Shown: in pieces, positions 21,601 to 53,568 of the stretch
Layout of the letters: each line of letters begins with the position of its first letter
Numbering within the stretch: the stretch's first letter is position 1
NCBI RefSeq assembly: GCF_007995015.1
Contig: NZ_VORB01000001.1
Coordinates: forward strand, 248,001 to 312,000
Direction: 5' to 3'
Origin: Luteibaculum oceani
GTDB taxonomy: Bacteria; Bacteroidota; Bacteroidia; Flavobacteriales_D; Luteibaculaceae
Length of the DNA: 64,000 nucleotides
Notes under the pieces: generated by a model
Seen by the model: only the letters and a program-made list of their open reading frames with translations
What the model was told of the DNA's origin: nothing
Database searches by the model: none
Translations under genes and position numbers: made by a program

Positions 21601-21602
21601 AA

Positions 21603-21628
21603 AAACCCCAGCCATGGCTGGGGTTTTC
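21603..21628. terminator. Bidirectional terminator between ywbE-like gene and the lipoprotein gene
   Basis: The near-perfect palindrome AACCCCAGCC ATGGCTGGGGTT, flanked by A on the left and T on the right, serves the plus gene (stop 21600) and the convergent lipoprotein gene (stop 21649). Confidence 0.9.
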
Positions 21629-46953: not shown

Positions 46954-47319
46954 ATGACTAAGCCTTCTCAACTGTTTCTAACCGGAGGAATTGCTTGGAT
47001 TTCTCTTAGTGTTTTATTGAGCGCTATTTTCCTTCCCGCTATACTTTGGCCTCAATTGGCCATTGCCAGTTTTTTCTACTTGTATGGTATAAGCAAGAAT
47101 TTCGGGTTAACAAGACTGCACAAAAAAGGAATAAACACACCATTAGTAGTTTTAGCTTTTCAAGGATTCTATTTTCTTATTGCATTGTTTCTGGTGGCAT
47201 TAACCATGCTAATAATACCCGAACAAAAAAAAACATACCTACCTCTAATCTTGCTTAATTCCTTGCTGTATTTAGCACTCGACCTGGTTCAAATGCTAAA
47301 ACAAAAACCCAATAATTAA
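46954..47319 (+). CDS. Small hydrophobic membrane protein of the ATP synthase region
   Basis: A 121-residue protein with about four membrane helices (FLTGGIAWISLSVLLSAI, PQLAIASFFYLYGISKNFG, LVVLAFQGFYFLIALFLVAL and PLILLNSLLYLALDLVQML). It sits between atpZ and atpB, 12 bases behind the former, in the place of AtpI in other genomes. I could not find a family signature; it may be a diverged AtpI-like assembly factor. Assignment to ATP synthase rests on position only. Confidence 0.6.
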   Translation: MTKPSQLFLTGGIAWISLSVLLSAIFLPAILWPQLAIASFFYLYGISKNFGLTRLHKKGINTPLVVLAFQGFYFLIALFLVALTMLIIPEQKKTYLPLILLNSLLYLALDLVQMLKQKPNN

Positions 47320-48512: not shown

Positions 48513-48725
<213 letters not shown>

Positions 48726-48738
48726 GAAAACTTACAAA

Positions 48739-48761
48739 GCCTGTAACGATTGGTTACAGGC
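48739..48761 (+). promoter_or_regulatory. RNA hairpin between atpE and atpF (attenuator or 3' stabiliser)
   Basis: A perfect 9-bp stem, GCCTGTAAC (48739-48747) with GTTACAGGC (48753-48761) and loop GATTG, is followed by a weak T-rich segment (CTTGTTTACTTT). It stands in the widest gap of the atp operon. It could act as a leaky terminator or mRNA stabiliser for the c subunit, needed in many copies. Confidence 0.7.
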
Positions 48762-48804
48762 CTTGTTTACTTTAAACTGTTAAGACACAACAACTCAGAA
48801 TATC

Positions 48805-49299
48805 ATGGAATTAGTTACTCCAGAATTAGGATTATCGATTTGGACCGCAGTAGCATTCATTATCCTTTTAGTAATCTTGCGTGTTTTTGCTTGGAAGCCA
48901 ATTCTTGAAGCAGTTAACGCTAGAGAAGAAAGTATTAGTTCTGCACTAGCAGCAGCTGAGGAAGCTAAAAAGGAAATGGCTTCTTTAAAGGCAAGCAATG
49001 AAGAACTTCTGAGAGAAGCCAACGAGGAGCGTCAAAAGATTATTACTCAGGCTAAGGCATTACAAGATAAGATGATCACTGAAGCTAAAGACAAAGCTAA
49101 AAGTGAGGCAGAAAAAATCGTAGCTGATGCTAAAGAAAGCATCACTATGGAAAAAGCTGCTGCAATGACTGAGTTGAAAAACCACATTGCAAGTCTTTCT
49201 ATCGAAATCGCCGAGAAAATTGTACGCGAGCAATTAAGCAGCAGCGATAAACAGAAGGCGTTAGCAGAAAATTTAGCATCAGAAGTTACCCTTAACTAA
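48805..49299 (+). CDS. atpF: F-type ATP synthase subunit b
   Basis: A 164-residue stator stalk subunit. It has one N-terminal membrane helix (LSIWTAVAFIILLVILRVFAW) then a long charged coiled coil (KEMASLKASNEELLREANEE, KAKSEAEKIVADAKESIT) reaching F1. The sequence FAWKPILEAVNAREESISSA is the usual family join. The length is typical (about 160). It lies behind the hairpin gap and is followed by atpH after 6 bases. Confidence 0.93.
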   Translation: MELVTPELGLSIWTAVAFIILLVILRVFAWKPILEAVNAREESISSALAAAEEAKKEMASLKASNEELLREANEERQKIITQAKALQDKMITEAKDKAKSEAEKIVADAKESITMEKAAAMTELKNHIASLSIEIAEKIVREQLSSSDKQKALAENLASEVTLN

Positions 49300-52351: not shown

Positions 52352-52375
52352 TTTCTTTGCTTAACATCTTTTTCG

Positions 52376-52410
52376 ACCGCTAATCAATTAATCTTTGATT
52401 AGCGGTTTTT
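52376..52410 (+). terminator. Terminator of the atp operon
   Basis: A 12-bp stem, ACCGCTAATCAA (52376-52387) with TTGATTAGCGGT (52395-52406), is followed by TTTTG. It lies 25 bases behind atpG and closes the operon, confirming that atpD and atpC are not downstream. Confidence 0.92.
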
Positions 52411-53515: not shown

Positions 53516-53539
53516 TTCTACTAAATAAATTTATTTTAG

Positions 53540-53568
53540 AGGGGTTGATTCTGTCAACCCCTTTTTTT
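53540..53568 (+). terminator. Terminator whose T-tract meets the kinase start codon
   Basis: A 9-bp stem, AGGGGTTGA (53540-53548) with TCAACCCCT (53554-53562), has loop TTCTG and then T to 53568. The next three bases are the ATG of the NtrY-like kinase. Confidence 0.9.

Follow-up and report, generated by a model that had tools for sequence, protein, structure and literature searches.

The hairpin located between atpE and atpF in Luteibaculum oceani is real and far better than chance would produce. It belongs to something larger, an RNA element, sharply defined and covarying, that stands at the right place, just after the gene for ATP synthase subunit c, in most sampled Bacteroidia (a class name that rests on named relatives), and that is absent from the gaps sampled outside this class. 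It is probably a control element that helps to make many copies of subunit c per enzyme. A single operon has to yield about ten copies of subunit c for each copy of most other subunits, and how this stoichiometry is reached is an old question that has been answered mainly in Escherichia coli. The new part is the loop, which is conserved on a freely changing stem. The element offers a testable handle both on operon stoichiometry and on the RNA-binding proteins of the phylum, few of which are to our knowledge known, and its conserved loop invites a pull-down of the partner.

The hairpin in the window

The window, i.e., the whole 64-kb stretch of DNA analysed, carries an atp gene cluster identified by the Pfam families ATP-synt_A, ATP-synt_C, ATP-synt_B, OSCP, ATP-synt_ab and ATP-synt. 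Upstream, between an AtpI-like gene (Pfam ATPase_gene1) and atpB, a 121-aa protein with no Pfam match at E 0.001 is predicted at 46954-47319. The original prediction had placed a perfect 9-bp hairpin at 48739-48761, in what it described as the only large gap between atp genes downstream of atpE. Both claims hold. Read directly, the sequence is GCCTGTAAC-GATTG-GTTACAGGC, in which five loop nucleotides cap a perfect 9-bp stem, and the atpE-atpF gap (48726-48804) measures 79 nt, compared with 6 nt for atpF-atpH, 14 nt for atpH-atpA and 17 nt for atpA-atpG. The stem is longer than had been claimed: it reaches beyond the core to 14 positions, with one A.C mismatch on the + strand at pair 10, and its foot stands 8 nt past the atpE stop. 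The features are the following:

48516..48725, + strand: atpE, encoding the 69-aa subunit c of ATP synthase, immediately before the hairpin (Pfam)
48734..48766, + strand: entire hairpin: 13 pairs and one A.C mismatch (mRNA strand) over 14 stem positions, with a 5-nt loop
48739..48761, + strand: perfect 9-bp core
48748..48752, + strand: pentaloop GATTG with C-G closing pair (83 of the 110 related loci have GGTTG or GATTG here)
48767..48804, + strand: A+T-rich stretch of 38 nt from hairpin to atpF start (the relatives' median is also 38 nt)
48805..49299, + strand: atpF, encoding the 164-aa subunit b of ATP synthase, immediately after the gap (Pfam)

The 79-nt gap folds with -18.2 kcal/mol versus -9.42 for shuffles (z -3.66), and one of 200 shuffles is as good; for the 33-nt stem alone z is -6.83, with none of 200 shuffles as good. 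The fold persists in a 381-nt context, and the pattern, with up to three mismatches allowed, occurs once in the 64 kb, where 0.01 occurrences are expected.

Conserved loop and covarying stem

The family of the window is represented by one genome; in its order, an atpF match is present in 334 of 355 genomes. A first set of 110 loci, picked by AtpF protein match and not by hairpin, comprises the 30 best matches in the order (window included) and the best 80 named ones. An atpE-atpF gap is measurable in 109 of them; the remaining locus, L097, shows the hairpin but lost its gap when gene ends were called anew, and is counted as a miss or left out. A G[GA]TTG pentaloop flanked by at least seven of eight possible pairs is found in 83 of the 110 loci, while shuffled gaps give such a hairpin in 0.145 of 109 cases on average and in two at most. 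It occurs neither on the antisense strand of the atpE-atpF gaps, nor on either strand of 108 atpB-atpE gaps, nor in 13 atpF-atpH gaps. Named holders include Flavobacterium, Kordia, Aquimarina, Wenyingzhuangia, Myroides, Mucilaginibacter (L080), Draconibacterium (L099) and Belliella (L101, L109). The loop, absent from the original prediction, is the most conserved part of the hairpin: the 83 loci with this loop contain 60 distinct 33-mers, mean identity at stem positions 4-9 is 0.36 among 56 distinct arms, and stem length varies from 8 to 19 bp (median 15).

Covariation of the stem, which the original prediction had named as a test, is found. Among 43 hand-picked distinct stems, for which pairs 1-8 were used in row selection, 95.3% of the cells are paired and 222 are changed on both sides, compared with 62.9 in shuffles; the covariation score is 1.048, whereas shuffles give 0.244 and slid partners no more than 0.201, and none of 500 shuffles scores as high. 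The four outermost pairs, which had no part in row selection, are paired in 150 of 172 cells, with 97 cells changed on both sides. That all 12 pairs show at least one double change is not telling, because 50 of the 500 shuffles also reach 12. Folding energies agree with a structured gap, with a median z of -5.12 for the atpE-atpF gaps (104 of 109 at or below -3), compared with +0.79 for the atpB-atpE control gaps (2 of 87 at or below -3). As for the strand, pairs 9-14, unused for selection, hold 29 G-U and 14 A-C cells, and this G-U excess in the relatives therefore favours the mRNA strand as the folding strand. In the window alone the 33-nt stem folds as well or better on the - strand (-20.3 kcal/mol versus -17.7 on the + strand), the window itself being the exception at its A.C pair; it is thus the relatives that settle the question, and their sequences suggest that the mRNA strand folds.

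The element is also specific to its place. In its own genome it gives one R1 match at E 2.3e-6, followed by matches at 4.39 and 6.43 (150 of 570 first-look candidates scored), and both strands of 464 kb of own sequence contain 35 pentaloop 9-bp stems with at least four G-C pairs, of which the one at atpE alone has a GRTTG loop. Across related loci totalling 594 kb, the sense strand of the gap carries 80 perfect 8-bp GRTTG hairpins, and only five are located elsewhere. Unlike the malE-malF repeats, which are multi-copy, and unlike REP/BIME-type elements, characterised by many copies per genome, the element has a single match with E below 1 in its own genome. With laxer filters, the R1 search gives a match with E of at most 1 in 29 of 38 genomes, and in 26 of these 29 the best match adjoins the listed position of atpE or atpF; G302 and G698 have their sole match elsewhere, and G252 has no listed atp position. 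Weaker further matches occur in ten genomes. Fifteen matches, in 12 of the 38 genomes, lie away from atpE. Eight of them, and also L300, were examined in context: L143, L299, L301, L302 and L304 fall in reading frames, the other four (L297, L298, L300, L303) between genes. One more R1 match, in G361, is known from the alignment alone. Outside the class there are six R1 matches, four of which have the best listed atpE match on another contig; around those of G380 and G688 the reading frames are unlike atp genes. These data support a single copy in each genome tested. R1 is unfit as a prevalence tool, because known elements are missed: under the strict filter it finds 51 of 392 genomes and misses G201, and with the laxer filters it gives no match in nine of the 38 genomes, including G432, G566 and G447, whose elements were read directly, and it misses the own element of G698.

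Inverted repeats are common in bacterial gaps, and one of the matches between genes, L298 of G004, is itself a GGTTG-loop hairpin, oriented against its flanking genes. Chance, or a plain repeat family without function, is nevertheless contradicted by the covariation, the fixed place and the near-zero controls, and is extremely improbable.

Spread and loop types

A wider, atpE-centred survey covered 94 loci, 78 from the same class and 16 from other classes of the phylum; one of them, L180, shares its genome with L003 from the first set. It scored as positive a dominant predicted hairpin with a 5-nt loop ending in G and a C-G or G-C closing pair, a loop class that was defined after the loops had been seen and applied identically to the controls. 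Such a hairpin is present in 102 of the 109 gaps of the first set and in 68 of the 74 class gaps of at least 30 nt in the wider survey, 17 of which had been pre-picked by their R1 match (L202-L208, L223-L228, L231, L242, L249, L254); without these 17 the count is 51 of 57. It is found in none of 14 gaps outside the class, where two more loci have short gaps, and in none of 88 atpB-atpE gaps. The 170 loops comprise 113 GGTTG, 22 GATTG, 10 AAAGG, nine ACAGG and four AGAGG, and nine other types occur once or twice each. Of the 13 class gaps scored as misses, four display the motif on visual inspection (L058, L081, L232, L253), two have a pentaloop that does not end in G (L007, AAATA; L032, GTTTA), three have other hairpins (L049, L078, L104), one folds with a triloop (L250), and the three of family f19 have tetraloops (L233, L235, L236).

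In L233 and L235, i.e., two of the three f19 genomes, a long stem with a C-TTCG-G tetraloop occupies the pentaloop site, possibly as a replacement of the pentaloop. UNCG-type loops are unusually stable, and the loop could be kept solely for an unusually stable fold, with a 3'-terminal G after a C-G closing pair as in UNCG, and have no reader. The shared C...G-G pattern and the f19 tetraloops speak for this explanation; yet GGTTG is by far the commonest loop of the element, and of the 35 pentaloop 9-bp stems sampled in the own genome, 34 carry some loop that is not GRTTG; fold stability as the sole reason is very unlikely.

A variant architecture is that of family f14, which is equated with Chitinophagaceae because named loci share the loop. 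It combines a 10-bp stem with a 3x3 internal loop, two fixed pairs (GC/GC cap) and a loop NNAGG. Among 20 such sequences 99.2% of the cells are paired and 10 of 12 pairs covary, the inner two (the GC cap) never varying. A model of this form, with at most 150 candidates scored per genome, matches every one of 12 f14 genomes exactly once and does not match any of four others; the absence of a second match is the informative part of this result, because the 12 genomes supplied the training sequences. An f14-type element together with a close AtpF also appears in L071, a record with the alphaproteobacterial name Beijerinckiaceae that is probably a mislabelled bin.

Four class genomes of families f21 and f22 (L196, L230, L247, L255) have gaps of 12-15 nt and no hairpin, which represents natural loss or the original state; the operon can therefore work without the element. 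Outside the class, five of the 14 gaps have strong folds with unrelated loops. Strong hairpins with such loops are seen in L211, L213, L216 and L218 (z -3.2 to -4.5), and a hairpin at this place may therefore predate the loop.

Possible roles in the atp operon

Two roles had originally been proposed for the hairpin, a limit on downstream transcription and protection of the atpE message. The first would correspond to an internal partial terminator, at which some transcripts end after atpE, leaving more atpE than atpFHAG mRNA. The window has the stable hairpin of an intrinsic terminator (-17.7 kcal/mol, 33 nt), and a simple terminator scan lists the site as terminator-like (5 T in 8). A U-tract right after the stem is missing in the window, where the T-run after the hairpin is 3, and the relatives are mixed, with runs of at most 3 in 18 of 83 and of at least 6 in 30 of 83. 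The median run after the last G-C pair is 5 for the 83 atpE hairpins versus 8 for 20 hairpins at atpG ends (Mann-Whitney p 3e-7), the latter from 19 relatives and the window, one further relative having no hairpin there. Given this weak U-run, plain termination is unlikely as the shared function; given the 30 longer runs, partial termination is possible in some species. Many stems also have A-rich 5' feet and T-rich 3' feet. In Clostridia, internal intrinsic terminators set the stoichiometry of ABC transporters and, like the element, have long stems and U-poor tracts inside operons; of the lower U content, longer stems and paired U-tracts described for them, the first and last fit many of the loci (PMC9045158, available text). 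Unlike these terminators, the element has a very weak U-run in the window, stems that are not especially G+C-rich, and a conserved loop, which terminators do not need: the atpG-end hairpins of the 19 relatives have varied loops, none of them GRTTG. Partial termination is thus a possible but rather unlikely explanation, and the original interpretation stands in part, strengthened by the covariation and weakened in its transcription-limiting role. In the window, a terminator-like hairpin and then TTTTTGTTT stand at 52375-52407, right after atpG, where the six-gene cluster atpBEFHAG therefore appears to end; atpD and atpC are not the next genes after atpG.

The stem foot lies a median of 8 nt past the atpE stop (range 1-27) and 38 nt ahead of atpF, and in the window the gap is far longer than the 6-17 nt of the other downstream atp gaps. 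Such spacing would also suit translational insulation, in which the hairpin keeps ribosomes that finish atpE out of atpF and uncouples both genes. Insulation needs no conserved loop, however, and a long unstructured gap might do as well, so this role is quite unlikely.

The explanation that we favour, and hold with about even confidence, is a cis-acting intercistronic element of the atp mRNA that forms a boundary after the subunit c message and whose loop is read by a putative partner. In the mechanism that we infer from the observed structure, a hairpin of the pentaloop form C-N4G-G after the atpE stop would mark where the heavily needed subunit c message gives way to the remaining genes of the operon, block 3'-to-5' decay and possibly direct cleavage; atpE mRNA would thereby outlast or outnumber atpFHAG mRNA, and the loop would be kept because a protein or RNA partner reads it. 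Position, strength and conservation are those expected of an element that sets the subunit c message apart, and protection of the atpE message would likewise fit the position and conservation. A loop that is kept on a free stem suggests, moreover, that something reads it. Against the favoured explanation, simple decay blockers need no conserved loop, and the loop is accounted for only by the putative partner. Neither of the roles first proposed accounts for it, and neither the conserved loop nor the class-wide spread had been foreseen.

Precedents for such a boundary exist in other bacteria. Stem-loops at the 3' ends of abundant operon genes set stoichiometry, and in Clostridium they separate messages through mRNA stability (PMC4423207, PMC8219983, in the text available); the abstract of PMC8219983 names ATP synthases among the predicted cases. 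The SRPS stem-loop of these papers follows the most needed gene of a multi-subunit operon, and the hairpin described here likewise follows the gene whose product the complex needs in most copies. Free energy is stressed as the SRPS determinant in the available text, where one legend shows conserved sequences in orthologous stem-loops; unlike SRPS, the present element keeps a short loop over the class and rewrites the stem. Differential mRNA stability within one operon is also linked to the intercistronic decay-blocking stem-loops of puf and malE-malF, to judge by titles cited in PMC5927463. The L17 downstream element (RF01708) is another conserved structured RNA just 3' of a coding gene, suggested in the available text to act from the 3' side (PMC2864571); it concerns another gene and other taxa, has no Rfam match here, and is likened by position only. 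In the E. coli atp operon, to judge by a title cited in PMC6544118, differential expression arises by segmental mRNA stability; the atpE-atpF gap of E. coli MG1655, of 61 nt, has an imperfect fold and none of the loops seen here. Rfam 15 reports no family at gathering score at the hairpin site of the window and 14 relatives; its best below-threshold match, Thr_leader (25.0 bits on the - strand and 19.9 on the + strand versus 55), was taken as chance. A literature search, with most subscription papers outside its scope, found nothing on the element among the papers listed; the terms atpE and ATP synthase are absent from the main text of a 2010 survey of 104 motifs, and 'ATP synthase' is absent from the transcriptome papers of Flavobacterium psychrophilum and Bacteroides thetaiotaomicron, supplements apart.

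A bolder reading, which we regard as tentative and somewhat below even in likelihood, would make the hairpin a class-wide RNA switch or processing element of the Bacteroidia. Its C-N4G-G pentaloop would dock a putative RNA-binding protein or nuclease that sets the subunit c level relative to the other parts of the enzyme, and loop and partner would co-diverge from lineage to lineage (GGUUG, GAUUG, NNAGG, NUUAG); the partner might perhaps even be an ATP synthase subunit acting as a feedback sensor.

Two further candidates were set aside. In 42 of 72 GGTTG loci, versus 9.5 expected, the loop complement CAACC is present no more than 300 nt away; because 35 of 46 hits fall at atpE codons 32-37, presumably the Gln-Pro motif of subunit c, this enrichment is read as a coding constraint and not taken as evidence of loop pairing with nearby mRNA, which may nevertheless occur. 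An internal promoter for atpF was sought through TAnnTTTG, which we take to be the Bacteroidota -7 box and which is present in 3 of 109 gaps versus 5.4 expected. Elsewhere in the window, a further strong, terminator-like palindrome lies at 53538-53564 and a perfect 13-bp inverted repeat without a loop at 21602-21627.
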